Source: Xanthobacter autotrophicus (lineage in GTDB: Bacteria; Pseudomonadota; Alphaproteobacteria; Rhizobiales; Xanthobacteraceae). Taken from it: 35,231 bases of DNA. The notes below the pieces were generated by a model. That model had not been told where the DNA came from, did not search any database, and saw nothing but the letters and a program-made list of their open reading frames with translations. Position numbers and translations under genes: made by a program. Shown here piece after piece: positions 5,180 to 13,832 of the stretch. Each line of letters begins with the position of its first letter. Positions within the stretch are counted from its first letter, which is position 1. The DNA lies in assembly GCF_030015065.1 (NCBI RefSeq), contig NZ_JAIVFN010000040.1, positions 1 to 35,231 on the forward strand, read 5' to 3'.

Positions 5180-5271
5180 GGAGACGTGGCCGAGAGGCTG
5201 AAGGCACTCGTTTGCTAAATGAGCAGACCCCCAAAAGGGTCTCGAGGGTTCGAATCCCTCCGTCTCCGCCA
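5180..5271 (+). tRNA. tRNA-Ser (anticodon GCU)
   Basis: A class II tRNA with a seven-base acceptor stem GGAGACG (5180-5186) pairing with CGTCTCC (5261-5267), discriminator G at 5268 and an encoded CCA at 5269-5271. The anticodon stem CTCGT/ATGAG encloses loop TTGCTAA, with anticodon GCT at 5214-5216. The long variable arm and the T-loop GGTTCGAATCC are typical of serine tRNA. An integrase relic lies just downstream, so the 3' end of this gene is a plausible attachment site for an integrated element. Confidence 0.97.
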
Positions 5272-5396
5272 TTTACCCCTTCCGGACAGTTCACCGACGA
5301 ACCAGAAAGCCCTGAAAAACAAAGGGTTTCCGGAAATCTTGGGAAGCCTTGGTATCACTGAATTACGCTGGATTTTAGTCCTACGTTGAGGCTGGT

Positions 5397-5433
5397 GTTG
5401 GGGCGAAATCGTTGGGGGCGATCCCGCCCCAAC
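5397..5433 (+). promoter_or_regulatory. inverted repeat upstream of integrase relic
   Basis: GTTGGGGCG at 5397-5405 is the exact reverse complement of CGCCCCAAC at 5425-5433, and a second GTTGGGGGCG copy sits in the loop. It lies 16 bases before the integrase ATG. It may be a regulator or integrase arm-type site, but nothing in the sequence distinguishes these. Confidence 0.35.
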
Positions 5434-5448
5434 GATGGGGGTTCCAGC

Positions 5449-6154
5449 ATGGCACTCGCGCTGAATCGCCTGACCGCACGTCAGGTTCAGACGATCACCA
5501 AGCCCGGCCGGCACGCTGACGGCGGGGGGCTTGTATCTGGTTGTCGATCCATCCGGAGCACGCCGATGGGTGTACTTGTTTCGGTGGAAAGGCAATCCGT
5601 CGCAGCCGGGGACCGGCCGGCTACGGGAGCTGGGCTTGGGCTCCTGCAAGGCGGTCAGTCTCGCGGAGGCGCGCGAGGCCGCCGCCGAGGCGCGAAAGAT
5701 GGTGGCCGCTGGGGTCGATCCCATCGCCGCGAAGCGAGCGGCGGCGCGGCCCGAGCGGAAGGTACCCACCTTCGCCGAGGTCGCTGAAGAGCACATCAAG
5801 GCAATGGAGCCGGGCTGGCGGAACGAGAAGCACGTCGCTCAGTGGCGCACGTCGCTCAGCGTCGAACGGGGCGAGGACGGCGCCCTGACCGACAGCGGCT
5901 ACTGCACTTCGATTCGCGAGAAGCCGGTGGATGAGATCGACACCGCTGCGGTGCTGGCGATTATCACGCCCCTCTGGCAGGCGAAGGCCGAGACCGCTTC
6001 GAGAATTCGCGGTCGGATTGAGAAAATCCTCGATGTGGCGAAGGCGAAGGGACTGCGCTCGGGAGAGAGCCCGGCGCGATGGCGCGGCCATCTGGAGTTG
6101 ATGCTGCCCGCCCGCCAGCGGCTTCAGCGCGGCCACCACGCGGCCATGCCTTAG
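5449..6154 (+). pseudogene. tyrosine recombinase/integrase, frameshifted and C-terminally truncated
   Basis: Reads as a P4-like integrase of the type that targets tRNA genes. The N-terminal arm-binding domain starts MALALNRLTARQVQTITKPG and continues in another frame with YLVVDPSGARRWVYLFRWKG. The core-binding domain follows (TFAEVAEEHIKAMEPGWRNEKHVAQW, KPVDEIDTAAVLAI, SRIRGRIEKILDVAKAKGLR). The frame break is in a run of six G at 5524-5529: removing one G restores the expected DGGGLYLVVD. The frame then ends just after the family's HHAALP-like segment (HHAAMP), where an IS element begins. The whole catalytic domain (R-H-R-Y) is therefore missing. Position directly after tRNA-Ser supports an ancient island insertion. 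Confidence 0.85.
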
Positions 6155-6428: not shown

Positions 6429-7917
6429 GTTGCCGCTGGACCACGATCTCTGAGCGGCTATCCTGCGCTCTACTCCAGGGAGAACGTGGACTTCGTTGCC
6501 GCTGGACCACGATCTCTGAGCGGCTATCCTGGAGAATAATAGACACCCATTTCCCGCTTGGTTGCCGCTGGACCACGATCTCTGAGCGGCTATCCTCGTC
6601 GGCGCCGGCCTCAAGCGCCCCACAGAGTTGCCGCTGGACCACGATCTCTGAGCGGCTATCCTCGGCACCGACAACGGCATTTGGCGGCGCATGTTGCCGC
6701 TGGACCACGATCTCTGAGCGGCTATCCTAACGTTGTTGTCCTCGAGCTTCTCACGAAGGTTGCCGCTGGACCACGATCTCTGAGCGGCTATCCTCCACGA
6801 CAGCAGCTTGCCGATGGCTGCGTCGTTGCCGCTGGACCACGATCTCTGAGCGGCTATCCTACCGTGCGAGTATTTCCAGACGCGGACGGTGTTGCCGCTG
6901 GACCACGATCTCTGAGCGGCTATCCTATTGGCGGTCGTGGTTCCCGGCTTGGGGCTGTTGCCGCTGGACCACGATCTCTGAGCGGCTATCCTGCAAGGCG
7001 TCAAGGTAACCTCACCGGCGCGGTTGCCGCTGGACCACGATCTCTGAGCGGCTATCCTTCGGCTTGGTGATGGGCTCACCGTCGAGATGTTGCCGCTGGA
7101 CCACGATCTCTGAGCGGCTATCCTCAACCCCCATGTTGATGAACCGCGTTGCAAGTTGCCGCTGGACCACGATCTCTGAGCGGCTATCCTCGCTTCTGCG
7201 GCCACGAGTTCACAGCGCCAGTTGCCGCTGGACCACGATCTCTGAGCGGCTATCCTAAAGGTCGGCATGTCCGCCTCGAATGCGATGTTGCCGCTGGACC
7301 ACGATCTCTGAGCGGCTATCCTCACCTCGGATATTTCGAGAGCTATGCGTCTGTTGCCGCTGGACCACGATCTCTGAGCGGCTATCCTTGCTGTCGAGAT
7401 AGGCGAAGGCGACGCGCTGTTGCCGCTGGACCACGATCTCTGAGCGGCTATCCTTCACGCGAATTGCTCGACGTCCTCGCCACCGTTGCCGCTGGACCAC
7501 GATCTCTGAGCGGCTATCCTCGGTCATGCTGCGGCCGTAGCCGCCGGCAAGTTGCCGCTGGACCACGATCTCTGAGCGGCTATCCTCATGCCCTGGTAGT
7601 TCGGCATCGCCCCGCCGGTTGCCGCTGGACCACGATCTCTGAGCGGCTATCCTCGGTGTCGTCCCACCAATCCCCGCCCACCGGTTGCCGCTGGACCACG
7701 ATCTCTGAGCGGCTATCCTCCGGTCCAAGCGTACCGGCGCCAAGCTGAAGTTGCCGCTGGACCACGATCTCTGAGCGGCTATCCTCTTGGTCACCTCCTT
7801 CTCAGGCTGCATCGTGTTGCCGCTGGACCACGATCTCTGAGCGGCTATCCTGGTAGTCTGCGAGACCACAAACCCCATGGCGTTGCCGCTGGACCACGAT
7901 CTCTGAGCGGCTATCCT
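6429..7917 (+). CRISPR. type II-C CRISPR array: 23 repeats, 22 spacers
   Basis: Twenty-three 36-nt repeats start at 6429, 6495, 6561 and so on every 66 bases up to 7551, then at 7618, 7684, 7750, 7816 and 7882. Each begins GTTGCCGCTGG, contains ACCACGATCTCTGA and ends GCGGCTATCCT; I saw no repeat variant. Spacers are 30 nt except the eighteenth (7587-7617), which is 31 nt. All 22 spacers differ. Orientation is plus: the anti-repeat of the tracrRNA (12863-12887) is complementary to the 5' two-thirds of the repeat as read on this strand. TATCCT at repeat positions 31-36, with TGGACC at 9-14 (16-nt gap), could form a promoter in each repeat, as in Neisseria type II-C arrays. No AT-rich leader precedes the first repeat, which follows the IS remnant directly. 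The 66-nt period keeps reading frames open and creates spurious ORFs. Confidence 0.99.
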
Positions 7918-7989: not shown

Positions 7990-8328
7990 TCAGAACAAGG
8001 CCAACTGGTCGGGATTTTTGCGGGGACGCCGCCGGCGCTGGCCCGAGAAACGGACGATGTTCTCATACTGCCGGTCCGTGAAGGTGAGGATGTGGATCTC
8101 GCCCTGTTCGGGCAAGTTCGATTCGATGCGGCGCATGTACGCCTCGAACTGCTCCTTGCCGTTGCAGAAGCGCGCATAGACGGAAAACTGGCTTTTCTCG
8201 AACCCTTCGTCGAGCAGAAACTGCCGGAATTTTGTGGCGGCGTGCATCTCCGCCCGGCTGCCCACCGGCAGGTCGAACATCACGAAGATCCACATGAGCC
8301 GGTATCCGCTGAGTTGCGTGGCGGTCAT
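7990..8328 (-). CDS. cas2: CRISPR-associated endonuclease Cas2
   Basis: A 112-residue Cas2 with the ferredoxin-like start YRLMWIFVMFDLPVGSRAEM (the family Asp in FDLPV), then FRQFLLDEGFEKSQFSVYARFC and the strand IHILTFTDRQYENIVRF. This matches type II Cas2. Cas2 dimers bridge two Cas1 dimers in the spacer-acquisition complex. Its ATG overlaps the cas1 stop (ATGA at 8325-8328), so it is translationally coupled as the last gene of the cas9-cas1-cas2 operon. An alternative start at the internal Met (8295) would remove eleven residues before the first strand. The C-terminal tail is basic and ends NPDQLALF. Confidence 0.97.
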   Translation of the reverse strand: MTATQLSGYRLMWIFVMFDLPVGSRAEMHAATKFRQFLLDEGFEKSQFSVYARFCNGKEQFEAYMRRIESNLPEQGEIHILTFTDRQYENIVRFSGQRRRRPRKNPDQLALF

Positions 8329-9248
8329 CGGACGAGGGCCCCGAGCCCCGCCAGTTCCAGCCGCGATGGCGGGCGCGGCAGCACGAGTTCGGCGGACCGT
8401 CCGGTCTGAAATGCCGTCGCCAGCGTCTGGGCCGTACGCTGGGCGGCGCCCGCCACGGTGGTGGTGCCGCCCTCCACCGGCAGGTCGAGGGCGATGAGGC
8501 TGGCGAAGGCGCGCTTGGCCTCGGGCGTCACGGTCTCGATGCCGGCCGCGACCAGCCTCAGGGCCAGCGCATCCACCAGAGGGCGCAGCGGCTCCACCAG
8601 ATCGTCGGCCAGCGCGAAGGCGTTGGTTCGGTTCGCATGGTGGATGCCCATGGAGGGATGCAGGCCCGCCGCCACCGCCGAGCGCGCGCACAAGGATCGC
8701 AGAACCGTATAGCCGTAGTTCAGCAAGGCGTTTACGCCGTCTGCCTCCCGATCTCGCCGGAAGGCTTCGCCCATCAGCAGGGGCCAGTAGCGCCGCGCGG
8801 CCTGGGCTTCCACGTTGTCCGGATCGCCCGAGCGCACCTTGCGGGCGAGCAGGTCGAAGGCCGAGGCCGAGACGCCGCAGGATTCAAGCACCGCCGCCTG
8901 CCAGGAGATCTTGGCGACGATCACCTGTCTCCAGAGCTGCTTCAGCAGCGGGCGTCCCGCCTCGAGCTGGGCACGGATGCGGGCGTTCTGCGCATGGTGG
9001 CCTTCAAGGGGCAGACATACGGCGACGGGGGCGTGGTTGGGGCCACACAGGAGCAGGATGGCCCCGCGCTCGGCCAGCGCGACCACCAGGTTGGTGGTCC
9101 AGGTGACACCGTGGGCATGGATGATGACCGCGCACACGTCGTCGAGGGGAATGCGCCCGACCTCGCGGCGCTCCTCGCTCACCACGAGGAAGCCCCGGTG
9201 GGCGGACAGGTGGCGGCCATCGGTGGCGATGTCGACAATCCGCTCCAT
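8325..9248 (-). CDS. cas1: CRISPR-associated integrase Cas1 (type II)
   Basis: A 307-residue Cas1, usual length for type II. The N-terminal beta domain (residues 1-80) is followed by the helical catalytic domain. The metal ligands are visible: E147 in DNVEAQAARRYW, H203/H204 in GIHHANRTNAF, and E219 in ADDLVEPLRPLVD, equivalent to E149/H205/E220 of the Streptococcus pyogenes protein. The protein integrates new spacers together with Cas2, usually with Cas9 selecting PAM-bearing protospacers. GGGAGG lies just upstream of the ATG, in the 12-base gap after the cas9 stop. There is no csn2 or cas4, which defines subtype II-C. Apparently intact. Confidence 0.98.
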   Translation of the reverse strand: MERIVDIATDGRHLSAHRGFLVVSEERREVGRIPLDDVCAVIIHAHGVTWTTNLVVALAERGAILLLCGPNHAPVAVCLPLEGHHAQNARIRAQLEAGRPLLKQLWRQVIVAKISWQAAVLESCGVSASAFDLLARKVRSGDPDNVEAQAARRYWPLLMGEAFRRDREADGVNALLNYGYTVLRSLCARSAVAAGLHPSMGIHHANRTNAFALADDLVEPLRPLVDALALRLVAAGIETVTPEAKRAFASLIALDLPVEGGTTTVAGAAQRTAQTLATAFQTGRSAELVLPRPPSRLELAGLGALVR

Positions 9249-9260
9249 CGCCTCCCTCTG

Positions 9261-12200
9261 TTATTCCGCCGCTTTCGAGGCCGAGGCCGGTTTGCGGGCC
9301 GGGAAGCCCGGGTCGAACACGCGCCCGGCCTCATCCACGCGGACCTGGCGCGCCTTCAGCTTCTTCAGGCCTCCGGCCGTGGGGGAAGTGTATTCGAACG
9401 GGTCGTCGGCGTTCTTGGAGCGGGCGCGCAGGTCCCCACCCTCGTTGAGCGGGACCAGGGTGACCTGACCATTCTGCCAAAGCTGCAAGACTTTCATGAG
9501 ACGCCGCTCGCCGGCGGTCTCGACGGCGAGAATATCGTCCTTGTGCAGGCGCAGCACTTTGCGCGCGGTCGGGCAACCGGCCTTGATGCGTGAGGCCCAG
9601 CCGGGCTGGTGGGCCTCGAACATGGAGATCACCTCCGGCACCCATTTGCCGTCGGGCATTTCCCAGACGTCGCAGCGATAATTGGAATCGCCCTTGTAGC
9701 CCTTGTAGGCCACACCCTCGCGATCCCGGATGGGGATTACCGACAGGGGCTCGACCACCCGCACGCGACGGATGTTGCGGAACTGGAGCGGACCAAGCTC
9801 AGGGAATTGAGCGAGTCGCCGCTCGAAGTCCTTGCCTTCGCGGCCTCGGGTGAAATCGCGCAGGGCGGCGCGTAGTTCGGGATCACGCACGCGGCGTTTG
9901 CCGGATGCGTCGTCGGCCTCCAGCTCCGCGGCCTTCAGGGCGCCGAGCGGGACGCGATGCACTACGTCATCCGGGCGGCCGTCCTTGACCAGGCCATAGG
10001 CCGTATCGTTATGGAGGCGGCCCGCCGTCTGGTCGCGGCCCTTGGGAAGGCCAGCCTTGGAGGCCGTGCCGTGGTCCGGCCGGTGGCTGACCACGATGGC
10101 GTTGACGGCGGCCTTCAGGTCGTCGCGGAAGGTGGGCCAGGGATCGGGCACAACCACCCGTTCGGCTCCCTCCCTGCCTTCCTCGCCGGAGACCCTCGCC
10201 ATGCGTTGCAGCATGCCACGGTCGAGAATGCCGATCACGGCAGCATCGATGGCGTGGTGGCGATGGTCCAGGCGGTTCTTGGGCTGGTCCGCGCCGCCGC
10301 CGAAATTGTGATCCGGCAGCAGGCTATTCAGCCCGAGCTTGCGGCGCACCAGCTCGGTGAGGCGCCCCGTGGCCACCCACACCCGGCCAGAGCCCTCGCC
10401 GGTATCGGGATAGAGGGCGGAAAGATACTGGCGCGCCATGCGCGAGAGATATTGCGTGTCCACGAGATGGCGGGCGATGAAACCCTCGCCCTCGAATTTC
10501 TTCATGGCATCGGGCTCGAACCGCCAGCGCTTCTCCTTGGACAGGCGGCTTGCCAGCTCGGCGATCTGGGCCCAGCGGTCGGTGTGGCCCCAGGCCTCGA
10601 AGGGCGCGCGTTTGCGCTTCTCGCGGTTGGCCTCCCTCAGGCACAGGATGCGGTTGGCGTTGGAATCGTCCAGCGTCGCATCGAAGGGCAGGATGTGGTC
10701 CACCTCCACCTTGTCCGAGAACAGCATGTCCATGGAGATCTGCGCGCCGGTATAGATGCAGCGCCGGTCCAACACATTCTCGCGGTTCAGCTCTTCCCAC
10801 AGCTTCAGCCGGGCGCGGTTGGCTCCAGTGTCCGGCTGCCCCAATTCGGCAAGCTTCTTCGAGCGCTCCTCGGCGTCACGGCGGTTCCTGGTGTTCTCGC
10901 GGTTGCGGCGCTGCTTTTCGTCGTCGGTCAGCTTCAGTTCGCGGGCAAGCTCGATGACGATGCCGTCCGGTCGGCCGAACCGGCGCACAAGCGCATTCAC
11001 CAGCCGCCGCAGCTGGTTGAGGCCGATATGCACGGTGGGATTGGTGAGCCGGCCGATACGCATCTCCTCCGGATCGGAGGGCTCGGCGGTGCCGGGCATG
11101 ATGTGCTGCTCCAGCACCTCGCCATAATAGGGAAGCGCCGCGTTGCCCTTGTCGTCGGTGAAGATCTCCCCGGTGCGGAAGTCGCTGTGGTGGCCGAGCC
11201 CGGCCTTCGCCACCGCCTTGTCGTAGGTGATCACCTCCGCCTCAAGGGCCGCGATCAGGCGGGTCGTCGCGGTGAGGCCGAAACGGCCGTAGCCCTGCGG
11301 CAGCCGGACACCGGAAACGGCCTTCGCCTGCTCCGGCGTGAGCTGCCAGGCGCTTTCGAGCCAGGCCCTGAGCGCGGCTTCGTCCTCCTCCTCCTGGACG
11401 CGGGCGATCACCTGCCATTGCGCGTCGGGGGCAAGATGCTGCCAGCCCGTACCGAACCGGCTCTTGTGGCCGAGCAGGGCGGCGACTTCGTCGCCCTTCA
11501 GATCGCTACGGTGCTCGCTTTCCTTGTTGAAGCGCGCATCGGGGTCGAGCTTCAGCGGCTTGCGCAGCTTGTCGAAGGAGACCTTCGCCTTGTTCTTCAG
11601 TTCCAGCAGCAAGATGTTGCGCTGTTCCAGCGTGAGGACTTCGGCCTTTTCGCCGGCCCGCACCACCATGAGGGCATTCACCTCCTCCAGCAGCCGGCGG
11701 CGCTGGAACAGGGGATGCGCCTTGGGCAGCCGCTCCTCGCCGGGCACCAGCGTGCAGGTGCCCACCTTGGGCCGCTTGAGCGGGCGCTGGTGGAACACGA
11801 TCTCGAACAGGCGATCATGCACCTGCGGGGTCAGCACACCCGGATGATACGGCGCCTGCGCCTGCCAGATGGCGTCGAACTCCTCCTCCAGCAGATCCCG
11901 GCCGGGATAGAAATCATAGCCGTCGCCACGGGCATTCTCCTCCCGCTCCGGGCGCAGGCGGGTGCGCACCGAGGGGATAGCGTTCGAGTTCGCCGCGCCG
12001 GCGCGGCGCATATGCAGGAATTCGCCGAAGGTGCGGGCGCCGTCTCCCTCCATGGCAGTGCGCAGGCGATCGATGCCGATGGCGATCTTGCCGGCGTCAT
12101 CCTCGGCGCCCCGGTCGGTTTTGCGGTTCGACTTGAACCCCCGGCGCTGGTTGATGTGGAACAGGGCGCGGCCGATCTCGTGGAGGGTCAGTGGGGCATC

Positions 12201-12533
12201 GAGGGCGCGGGCGCGCAGAGCGAAGGGGTCGCGGCCTTCCAGCGCCTGCCGGGCGGTGGCCTCGGCCGGGAACAGGCCGTCCAGCTCCAGATGCTTCAGA
12301 AGGGCAGCTTGGCGCTGCTTGAAGCGGTCGCGCCGCCGCCGCATGGCGCGGGCGGCGCGGCGCTCCACCGCGAGCGGCGTGCCCTGCTGATCGCCCCGGC
12401 TGGGCGCACGGCCATCCCCGAACAGGCGAACGCCGGCGGCGAGGATGGAAACTGGCGCCCCATTCTCCTCAAGGGCAAGGGCACACCAGCCGATGGAACC
12501 GGCACCGAGGTCCAGGGAAAGTCGCCAAGCCAC
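9261..12533 (-). CDS. cas9: Cas9 endonuclease, type II-C, compact (1090 aa)
   Basis: RNA-guided DNA endonuclease. Numbering is from the GTG start: RuvC-I D8 (LSLDLGAGSIGW); arginine-rich bridge helix about 58-87 (RRAARAMRRRRDRFKQRQ); REC lobe to about 500; RuvC-II E528 (IVIELAREL); HNH domain with D612-H613 (EVDHILPFD), N625/N627, and Cys at 592 and 631; RuvC-III H759/H760 and D763 (HRHHAIDAAVIG); PAM-interacting domain in the last 270 residues. All catalytic residues are present. The size suits II-C. Start choice: GGAGG (12540-12544) touches the ATG at 12539 but lies six bases before the GTG at 12533, so GTG is preferred; the ATG would add two residues. The frame extends further upstream to 12710, but that part is non-conserved. 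It overlaps no other real gene. Confidence 0.97.
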   Translation of the reverse strand: MAWRLSLDLGAGSIGWCALALEENGAPVSILAAGVRLFGDGRAPSRGDQQGTPLAVERRAARAMRRRRDRFKQRQAALLKHLELDGLFPAEATARQALEGRDPFALRARALDAPLTLHEIGRALFHINQRRGFKSNRKTDRGAEDDAGKIAIGIDRLRTAMEGDGARTFGEFLHMRRAGAANSNAIPSVRTRLRPEREENARGDGYDFYPGRDLLEEEFDAIWQAQAPYHPGVLTPQVHDRLFEIVFHQRPLKRPKVGTCTLVPGEERLPKAHPLFQRRRLLEEVNALMVVRAGEKAEVLTLEQRNILLLELKNKAKVSFDKLRKPLKLDPDARFNKESEHRSDLKGDEVAALLGHKSRFGTGWQHLAPDAQWQVIARVQEEEDEAALRAWLESAWQLTPEQAKAVSGVRLPQGYGRFGLTATTRLIAALEAEVITYDKAVAKAGLGHHSDFRTGEIFTDDKGNAALPYYGEVLEQHIMPGTAEPSDPEEMRIGRLTNPTVHIGLNQLRRLVNALVRRFGRPDGIVIELARELKLTDDEKQRRNRENTRNRRDAEERSKKLAELGQPDTGANRARLKLWEELNRENVLDRRCIYTGAQISMDMLFSDKVEVDHILPFDATLDDSNANRILCLREANREKRKRAPFEAWGHTDRWAQIAELASRLSKEKRWRFEPDAMKKFEGEGFIARHLVDTQYLSRMARQYLSALYPDTGEGSGRVWVATGRLTELVRRKLGLNSLLPDHNFGGGADQPKNRLDHRHHAIDAAVIGILDRGMLQRMARVSGEEGREGAERVVVPDPWPTFRDDLKAAVNAIVVSHRPDHGTASKAGLPKGRDQTAGRLHNDTAYGLVKDGRPDDVVHRVPLGALKAAELEADDASGKRRVRDPELRAALRDFTRGREGKDFERRLAQFPELGPLQFRNIRRVRVVEPLSVIPIRDREGVAYKGYKGDSNYRCDVWEMPDGKWVPEVISMFEAHQPGWASRIKAGCPTARKVLRLHKDDILAVETAGERRLMKVLQLWQNGQVTLVPLNEGGDLRARSKNADDPFEYTSPTAGGLKKLKARQVRVDEAGRVFDPGFPARKPASASKAAE

Positions 12534-12682
12534 CTGCATCCTCCAATTGCACATATAAATTGATTGCAACCAAAGATGGCGATCAAGATCCGCAACCCTT
12601 GTGGAACCGAATATGAGCCGGGCGGAAACCCTTCTCGTGCCGGGGTCGCCATCCGACGTGCGCACGACACGCCGGAGCCACC

Positions 12683-12710
12683 ACCATAGCGAGCATGCGC
12701 TGAAGATCAA
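12683..12710 (-). promoter_or_regulatory. candidate cas9 promoter
   Basis: On the minus strand TTGATC (12710-12705, preceded by CC) is separated by 16 bases from TATGGT (12688-12683). Each matches the sigma-70 consensus at four of six positions. Transcription would start near 12676, giving an approximately 140-nt leader. An AT-rich stretch nearer the gene (about 12551-12562) could hold another promoter, so the assignment is tentative. The -35 lies directly beside the 12-nt guide match at 12715-12726. Confidence 0.45.
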
Positions 12711-12713
12711 GGC

Positions 12714-12726
12714 TAACTCTGATCAC
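12714..12726 (-). promoter_or_regulatory. candidate Cas9/tracr-L target site upstream of cas9
   Basis: The minus strand reads GTGATCAGAGTTA here, identical to plus-strand 12783-12795 in the tracrRNA locus (a 13-bp perfect inverted repeat, 56 bases apart). The first 12 bases (12726-12715) equal the 3' end of the proposed guide. The PAM-side flank on the non-target strand is AGCCTTGA, overlapping the candidate cas9 -35. The core TGATCA is itself palindromic, so a protein operator is an alternative reading. Confidence 0.55.
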
Positions 12727-12750
12727 ATTAAACGCTTTCGCTCACTCGGC

Positions 12751-12764
12751 CTGCGGCCTATATT
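12751..12764 (+). promoter_or_regulatory. candidate tracr-L promoter / degenerate repeat end
   Basis: CTGCGGCCTATATT resembles the repeat's 3' end (CTGAGCGGCTATCCT). TATATT (12759-12764) is a good -10, with a weak -35 (TTTCGC, 12736-12741, 17 bases away). Exactly 30 bases separate it from the next repeat-like segment at 12795, the same as spacers in the array. Expected start about 12771. Confidence 0.5.
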
Positions 12765-12794
12765 GCGGTCAGCGCCCTGGACGTGATCAGAGTT

Positions 12795-12855
12795 ATTGCT
12801 TCTGGACCACGATCTCTAAGACCGAGCTTGACTGCGATCTCCATACCGCTATCCT
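12795..12855 (+). repeat. degenerate CRISPR repeat split by a 25-nt insertion
   Basis: 12795-12820 matches the first 26 bases of the array repeat with a few changes. 12846-12855 (CCGCTATCCT) matches its last ten bases. The intervening 12821-12845 carries the TTGACT box of the short tracrRNA promoter. This suggests the tracrRNA promoter was built on an old repeat. Confidence 0.65.
12828..12855 (+). promoter_or_regulatory. candidate short tracrRNA promoter
   Basis: TTGACT (12828-12833, preceded by C) and TATCCT (12850-12855) are 16 bases apart. Transcription would start at about 12862, right at the anti-repeat. The -10 is the same hexamer that ends every array repeat. Confidence 0.6.
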
Positions 12856-12861
12856 GAAAAT

Positions 12862-12938
12862 ACAGAGATCGTGGTCTGGCGGTTAACAAGCAGCCAGTCT
12901 GCACCAGATAAGGGCAGCGCTCCGGCGCTGCCTTTTTT
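12862..12938 (+). ncRNA. tracrRNA (short form)
   Basis: The anti-repeat at 12863-12887 (CAGAGATCGTGGTC, then TGGCGGTTAAC) is complementary to the 5' two-thirds of the array repeat, interrupted by a small bulge. The tail (12888-12912) contains a short nexus-like hairpin region (CAGCCAGTCTGCACCAGATAAG). The RNA ends in a GC-rich hairpin followed by six T. It is divergent from cas9, upstream of it, as in many II-C loci. It guides RNase III processing and is the Cas9 scaffold. Confidence 0.92.
12913..12938 (+). terminator. intrinsic terminator of tracrRNA
   Basis: GGCAGCGC (12913-12920), loop TCCG, GCGCTGCC (12925-12932), then TTTTTT (12933-12938). A textbook rho-independent terminator, and it fixes the transcription direction of the tracrRNA. 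Confidence 0.95.
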
Positions 12939-12940
12939 AT

Positions 12941-13275
12941 TTCAATCCATTGCCCCGATTGGTCAGACTGGCGAGCGCCCTGGCATCCACGCAATCCGAG
13001 AGCGGCGCAAAGCTCATTTGCACTCATCTGGAGTATGGCGCACGGCAGGCAATACGGCTCTTTCTACGGCTATTCAATTCGGACGGCTCGGTCGCTGAAG
13101 GTCTGGAAGTGGCGCGCTCCCGGATCTGGACGAGCCTCCATCAACCACCTCCACGCGCAGGGAACAACATATCCGGGAGCTTCGGGGGATGGCACCGAGG
13201 CGATGAGTCCGGGGCATTCCGAATCGTATGACGGAACTTGGGCTGACGCGCTCCACGCGCGCCAAGATGTGCGTG
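12941..13275. other. non-coding remnant region beyond tracrRNA
   Basis: No reading frame here resembles a known protein, and the apparent frames in both directions look like chance or decayed sequence. It is the junction between the CRISPR-Cas block and ordinary chromosome. I looked for a copy of the tRNA-Ser 3' end (a second attachment site) and did not find one here. Confidence 0.5.
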
Positions 13276-13832
13276 TCATACACGCCATCCTGGCAAGGGG
13301 AACCTGCTGCGCGTTCCCCATTGCATCCTCTCCGGCCTGGCTTTGGCAATGGTCGCCAGCGGCAGGAAGAGCTGGAGCGGCCGGTAGCTGAAGGCAACGA
13401 AGCTGAAGCGGGCGAGAACGCGGTCGCCCCCTCGTCCTTGGCATCCACCGCCAGCGCATAAACCCCCGTCTCGGCCCGCAGCGCCCGCTCGGCCGCATCC
13501 CACAGCAGAGTGGCGCCGAGCTTCCTGCCCTGGAATGCTTGGTCCACCGCGAGCCGGCCGATGCGGGCCACCCGGACCACTGGATAGCGTGGCAGGCGGC
13601 GGGCCAGATCCTCGGGAGTGTCCTTCAGCGCCACGTCGCCGGCGGACAGCGTGTAGAAGCCCGCCACCGCCTTCGCGCCCTCGGCGCAGGCCCCATAGCA
13701 GAGCGCGGCCCGGCGCTTCATGTCCTGGGTGGCCTGCTCCCTCAGATGGCGGTCGAGCACGAAGGTGCCGCAGGAAAAGCCCGTGCGGTCATGGGCGGCG
13801 CTCAAGACCTCGATAGTGAACGCCACGCTCAC
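13276..13832 (-). pseudogene. GNAT acetyltransferase (TacT/AtaT toxin-like), frameshifted
   Basis: GTG start at 13832. The first 140 residues are a clear GNAT of the kind found as toxins beside DUF1778 antitoxins: FSCGTFVLDRHLREQATQD, AVAGFYTLSAGDVAL, PVVRVARIGRLAVDQAFQGRKLGATLLWDA (motif A) and GVYALAVDAKDEGATAF. The expected continuation (ARFSFVAFSYRPLQLFLPLATIAKA) is in another frame. One missing base near 13414 (TTCTCGCC where TTCTACGCC is expected) explains this. After ATIAKA the restored frame runs on about 24 residues to 13276, so the natural stop may also be lost. No ribbon-helix-helix antitoxin gene is visible upstream, so this is probably a dead toxin. Confidence 0.8.

Follow-up and report, generated by a model that had tools for sequence, protein, structure and literature searches.

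The CRISPR locus on contig NZ_JAIVFN010000040.1 of Xanthobacter autotrophicus raises the question of whether a type II-C Cas9 can be led to the DNA upstream of its own gene by a guide built into its tracrRNA, as a preliminary description of the sequence had proposed. The window, meaning the whole stretch of 35,231 nucleotides that was analysed, carries a CRISPR array on the plus strand (6429-7917) with 23 repeats of 36 nt and 22 spacers, followed on the minus strand by a stretch with cas2 (7990-8364; TIGR01573, 65.2 bits), cas1 (8325-9248; TIGR03639 cas1_NMENI, 237.3 bits) and cas9 (9261-12539; TIGR01865, 587.5 bits), the translation of which starts at an ATG at 12539 or a GTG at 12533. The Cas9 family model TIGR01865 is not subtype-specific and the subtype was taken from the gene content: the locus is type II-C, because no further cas gene lies between cas9 and the array and because cas1 matches the cas1_NMENI model. 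The tracrRNA gene reads away from cas9 on the plus strand, with its anti-repeat at 12864-12886 and, as judged by the fold, its remaining hairpins and terminator at 12887-12938, the terminator ending at about 12938. An Rfam scan of the window gave a single match at the gathering score, a tRNA, and nothing at the tracrRNA. A tRNA-Ser and then an integrase-like open frame with arm-binding and central domains (5180-6154) adjoin the CRISPR array, and the locus may lie in an old tRNA-integrated island. Directly past the tracrRNA, an open frame (13074-13832) has a match to the GNAT N-terminal acetyltransferases which covers the frame in part only.

The model for such self-control comes from Streptococcus pyogenes, in which Workman et al. 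in 2021 reportedly described a type II-A natural single-guide RNA of about 171 nt, tracr-L. According to the accessible portion of a 2021 review, an 11-nt match lets Cas9 bind and repress the cas promoter while cleavage is apparently prevented (PMC8616872); tracr-L is also described in the available parts of PMC11417352 and PMC8730458. The length of the match to the cas promoter is given differently in these partly accessible sources, as about 11 nt (PMC8616872) or as 9 bp (PMC8730458). The same portion of the 2021 review states that tracr-L was not found in other subtypes (PMC8616872).

In the window, the proposed guide seed GTGATCAGAGTT at 12783-12794 (plus strand) is identical to the minus strand at 12726-12715, upstream of cas9, so that the claimed 12-nt match is real; with one shared A at the guide/repeat boundary, as had also been described, it extends to 13 nt including one repeat base (12714-12726 and 12783-12795). 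The 12-mer was absent from all 100 shuffles of the window, and the core with its flank, TGATCAGAGTTNNC, has a single site in the 5.04-Mb assembly of 594 contigs, which is the target upstream of cas9. On its PAM side the target (12715-12726, minus strand) is flanked by AGCCTTGA (12707-12714, minus strand). The repeat-like arm that had been placed directly after the guide (12795-12820, plus strand) does have 22 of 26 identities to repeat positions 1-26, and its proposed partner, in cis, is the anti-repeat. With an RNA start near 12771, the complete guide would span about 12771-12794. A consensus scan gives a candidate promoter for this long tracrRNA, TTCGCT-16-TATATT (12737-12764, plus strand), and for cas9 a weak candidate, TTGATC-16-TATGGT (12683-12710, minus strand); the -35 named in the preliminary description (12705-12710) belongs to this best-scoring promoter on the cas9 strand, and the target site abuts it. 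Array spacers are indeed 30 nt long in 21 cases and 31 nt in one. The idea that the guide is an array-like 30-nt spacer flanked on the left by a repeat did not hold: at 12729-12764, where that repeat should lie, only 10 of 36 positions are identical to the repeat, against a random mean of 9.6. A left-hand repeat was likewise looked for 30 nt before the arm in the 24 aligned loci considered below and was rejected there, with 5-15 identities. A feature absent from the earlier account is a second degenerate repeat (12820-12855, plus strand; 23 of 36 identities), the end of which, judging by its letters, likely carries the promoter of the short tracrRNA, TTGACT-16-TATCCT.

In the window, the anti-repeat follows the arm on the same strand at a distance of 69 nt, and both precede a single terminator. 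For the predicted RNA of 168 nt (12771-12938), folding gives 13 arm:anti-repeat pairs at -63.4 kcal/mol (z -3.7), and none of 229 compared stretches forms a better duplex with the anti-repeat than the arm (-30.6 kcal/mol). In 19 of the 24 aligned loci the anti-repeat pairs better with the arm than with any other compared stretch, the exceptions being L106, L041, L043, L080 and L111; in L080 and L111 the duplex is unexceptional. Minimum-energy folds of the long RNAs contain at least 12 arm:anti-repeat pairs in 15 of the 24 and none in six (L107, L159, L039, L041, L111 and L056). The distance from the start of the arm to the anti-repeat is 65-71 nt in nine loci, 45-63 nt in ten and 91-140 nt in five. 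No common position of a promoter for the long RNA could be recognised across the aligned loci, and a shared -10 upstream of the guide was discarded, as matches to TANNNT are scattered and many loci have none.

Conservation or co-variation of the match among related loci had been proposed as a test of the idea. Relatives of the Cas9 were collected from genome searches, one of which gave loci for 29 of the 34 other genomes with a match, and from one contig scan, which listed 79 distinct loci out of 513 encoding a relative. After exclusion of duplicates and of loci lacking the 5' end of cas9 or a divergent tracrRNA, 116 non-duplicate loci with a tracrRNA divergent from cas9 remained. The best repeat-like arm reaches a score of at least 6 in 36 of them, and in 15 of these 36 the sequence before the arm matches the locus's own cas9 upstream region over at least 11 nt. 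When each guide was compared with the upstream regions of the other loci, a match of at least 11 nt occurred in 1 of 4140 pairings; other end positions within the same loci gave 38 in 8198, with overlapping neighbours counted apart. A script picked 21 of the 116 loci as having a match of at least 9 nt near the arm. The aligned set of 24 leaves out one of these (L063) and includes four added after inspection (L106, L107, L080 and L056). Of the 92 loci outside the aligned set, most lack an arm or have only a short upstream region.

The same procedure was applied to further loci from 396 genomes of another order and two small searches. Of the 26 loci checked, four were already in the set and five had no divergent tracrRNA, leaving 17 to be counted; three of these (L248, L254 and L257) have matches of 11-12 nt ending at the arm, with the flanks GGAG, GGGG and AGAA, respectively. 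In L239 a 12-nt match ends 1 nt before the arm and was not counted, and the remaining loci have a match of at most 7 nt or no arm. Other arrangements were seen as well: between cas9 and the tracrRNA of L115, an inverted match of 18 nt stops 2 nt short of a repeat-like arm, and four loci (L129, L063, L132 and L044) have repeat-like arms upstream of the tracrRNA for which their cas9 region offers no clean match. These four guides may be aimed elsewhere or may have decayed.

The guides of the 24 aligned loci are mostly unrelated to one another, and each matches the cas9 upstream region of its own locus. Consecutive identities number 11-13 in 17 loci, and the other seven, some of which were added after inspection, have 9 or 10 identities in 11. 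Counted from the arm, positions 1-11 are identical in 24, 24, 24, 24, 23, 24, 22, 23, 24, 21 and 23 of the 24 loci; positions 12-15 in 5, 7, 6 and 5, and positions 13-26 in 3-11. The high identity over the first 11 positions is in part due to the way the loci were selected; the stop after 11 nt is not, because no upper limit was set. Five loci (L039, L041, L043, L178 and L208) have targets that share TAAG at positions 12-9 and guides with C or G at position 12, and it looks as if the mismatch directly past the match has been kept.

The flank of the targets, which were picked by a script that was blind to it, is also biased. Its second position is G in 23 of the 24 loci, the chance of which is about 2e-13 before multiplying for some 48 choices of base and position; at the third, 17 loci have G, five A, one T and one, the window, C. 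The trinucleotide is NGG in 17 loci and NGA in four, and the flank of L159 is AAAAAATA. Guide and target were moreover found to change together: in L043 and L178, the sites of which look homologous, the guides differ at three of 11 positions and the targets mirror every one of these differences, and L124 and L078 have one mirrored change in common, with one mismatch in L078. With 24 loci each matching itself, and next to no matches across loci, the proposed test was passed. The type II-C natural single-guide logic that had been claimed for this locus is likewise supported by the co-variation, the stop at about 11 nt and the PAM-like flank, its function being inferred.

A more difficult point is the PAM of the window's own Cas9, as its flank AGCCTTGA has G at position 2 and lacks G at position 3, reading AGC and not NGG. 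Spacer 14 matches a single target exactly, in a genome from the window's genus, where the flank is GTCCATGG. Spacer 15 (7389-7418) matches at 28-29 of 30 positions in the terminase gene of phage Pam5 and in three IMG/VR contigs, four related viral records with the flanks CGCCATTG, CACCATTG, CACCATTG and CGCCGTTG. From these few protospacers, those of spacers 14 and 15, a PAM of NNCCNT can be tentatively derived, and AGCCTTGA would fit it. The targets of spacer 6 (28/30; flank GGCGACGC) and spacer 4 (27/30; flank GCTGTTGG) fall outside this pattern, and the 31-nt spacer 4 of Xanthobacter agilis (flank GCCGTCAG) conforms only if the spacer includes one PAM base. A 31-nt X. agilis spacer also has 31/31 identities to its own genome (L234, G947:C20:53567-53598), and the array of this genome, G947, from the window's genus, is identical to that of X. 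agilis LMG 16336. Matches of window spacers with 22-26 of 30 identities were excluded from the PAM estimate, as were plasmid matches (H3-H6) at E 0.4. Single-pattern viral scans with spacers 14, 6, 21, 12 and 22 gave no match. Of the other arrays, that of L039 had, besides itself, one weak match (84% over 45 nt) in 69 genomes of its family; against phages, the array of L044 gave weak matches in five records, that of X. agilis six weak records and that of L106 no match. In the C-terminal region, the Cas9 proteins of the window and of X. agilis have KVLQLW, whereas the NGG set mostly has RVVKF. As far as the accessible part of its description goes, the PAM measured for EHCas9, also of type II-C, is NGG, with NGGDT as the best form (PMC10281378). 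The evidence on the window's Cas9 is thin but compatible, and AGCCTTGA as its PAM is plausible, not proven.

The sites occur in both orientations, with eight inverted, the window included, and 16 direct. Inverted sites lie further from cas9 (median 141 nt) than direct ones (61 nt; p 0.0013). Six of the eight inverted sites and three of the 16 direct ones have a TTGA in the 12 nt that follow. A FastTree phylogeny of Cas9 covering 110 of the 116 loci (six were left out) has 22 of 61 loci as carriers in its main clade and two carriers elsewhere. The 24 carriers require 21 changes on this tree against a mean of 22.1 when shuffled, and 150 of 500 shuffles need no more than that; the distribution is patchy, and gain cannot be told from loss. 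In X. agilis, the Cas9 of which is 93% identical to that of the window, the arm is eroded and a 7-nt match is the best that could be had by trying several arms and shifts; beside this match the flank AGCCTTGA is found again in the opposite orientation. Two further observations were made: a genome of the window's genus with no Cas9 match at 1e-30 has a solitary CRISPR repeat (L265, position 8044, G881:C11), 33/36 identical to the window's, and a cas9 relative in three pieces (L211-L213 and L216; G991:C79) has a repeat remnant (29/36) nearby.

Could the guide be no more than a self-derived spacer in decay, without present function? The eroded form in X. agilis, the several loci with arms and no match and the scatter on the tree, hardly different from shuffled carriers (21 changes against 22.1), would all be accommodated. 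Such a spacer should however leave a match of about 30 nt decaying along its length, whereas 21-24 of the 24 loci are identical at each of the first 11 nt and identity then drops to near background, in guides that are unrelated to one another; the mirrored changes in L043 and L178 also speak against decay, and this explanation is considered very unlikely. The long RNA might instead work by antisense pairing with the cas9 leader and not direct Cas9 to DNA at all. Its guide is complementary to the leader strand in 16 of the 24 loci, in some of them at the start codon, but in the window and seven others the match is inverted, which gives the guide the same sense as the cas9 mRNA and leaves it unable to pair. 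RNA pairing would not need a G at flank position 2 in 23 of 24 loci either, and an antisense role can hardly be credited.

Even less can be said for the paired sequences being sites of a protein regulator that lie beside the arm by accident. Short repeated boxes are common near promoters, and the TTGA-like -35 elements close to most of the inverted sites (6/8) and some of the direct ones (3/16) would suit such a regulator. Yet the sequences differ from locus to locus with a single cross-locus match in 4140, both orientations occur (in eight inverted and 16 direct sites), one copy runs exactly up to the arm and the G at flank position 2 accompanies the other copy only, so that next to no weight is given to this possibility.

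What is observed is the anatomy, the match between guide and target with its stop, the bias of the flank and the co-variation. The reading we prefer, and hold with high confidence, is that a short seed in a natural single-guide RNA keeps Cas9 bound, without cleavage, at the promoter or leader of its own gene; transcription, loading, binding and repression are all inferred. The long form of the tracrRNA, about 168 nt, would consist of guide, repeat-like arm, linker, anti-repeat, nexus and terminator. Pairing of the arm with the anti-repeat in cis would allow Cas9 to be loaded without a crRNA, and the complex would bind the DNA upstream of cas9 through the 12-nt seed and the PAM. By analogy with S. 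pyogenes tracr-L, the match would be too short for cutting and would permit binding only, which would make Cas9 its own repressor. In the window, a site abutting the candidate -35 of cas9 would imply a block of initiation, and the complex sitting there might in addition mask the -35 of the candidate promoter of the long RNA itself. In CRISPR interference, pairing of the guide with the coding strand is the orientation that blocks elongation. In relatives with direct sites nearer to the start codon, the guide would pair with the coding strand of cas9 and may thereby form a roadblock to elongation. Since many relatives carry the same design with different letters, this type II-C family probably restrains itself by its own guide, a conclusion for which there are no transcript or binding data.

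The proposed RNA resembles tracr-L in being an extended tracrRNA with a 5' guide that shares about 11 nt with its own cas promoter next to a PAM (tentative in the window), in joining the guide in cis to the anti-repeat, and in length, with 168 nt predicted here and about 171 nt reported for tracr-L. It differs from tracr-L in that the window's system is type II-C and from Alphaproteobacteria with a different Cas9 and tracrRNA, that the arm and the short promoter look derived from CRISPR repeats, and that targets occur in either orientation, the window's flank not being NGG. A tracr-L proper belongs to a type II-A locus; as the window's locus is type II-C, its RNA is a variant and not a II-A tracr-L. 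Shmakov et al. in 2023 are said to have described regulatory mini-arrays and standalone repeats, mostly of types I and V-A. Mini-arrays likewise combine a degenerate repeat with a spacer that partly matches a cas promoter, whereas here guide and tracrRNA form a single RNA, no left-hand repeat was found and the effector is Cas9. The scaRNA of Francisella novicida (type II-B) and Neisseria meningitidis (type II-C) is, in the available parts of its descriptions, also a repurposed repeat-like RNA at a type II locus through which Cas9 serves gene control (PMC8730458, PMC13431127). It is, however, a separate small RNA that pairs in trans with the tracrRNA and acts on other genes (lipoproteins; the efeO mRNA), whereas the guide here lies within the tracrRNA gene and is aimed at cas9; with arm and anti-repeat on one strand and a single genomic site for seed and flank, the window's RNA does not qualify as a scaRNA. 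Among the matches listed in the open-access literature, none reports a natural single-guide RNA from type II-C, and in that literature, as far as accessible here, type II-A is the only subtype in which Cas9 is described as controlling itself through a long tracrRNA.

A wider claim can be put forward only as a possibility that we would not assert, namely that single-guide self-control is recurrent and switchable in both II-C and II-A, being gained or lost almost freely among close relatives, that it works in two modes (inverted sites blocking the promoter, direct sites acting as roadblocks in the leader), that it stays at about 11 nt and tracks the PAM of the Cas9, and that in the window it perhaps also curbs the promoter of the long RNA. 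If Cas9 self-control in type II-C is real, the PAM of a Cas9 could be guessed from its own guide-target pair with nothing more than a genome, and these loci would be a source of natural truncated guides that are expected to bind without cutting. It would also make self-restraint a broader rule of type II immunity and would bear on how far Alphaproteobacteria hold their Cas9 levels down.
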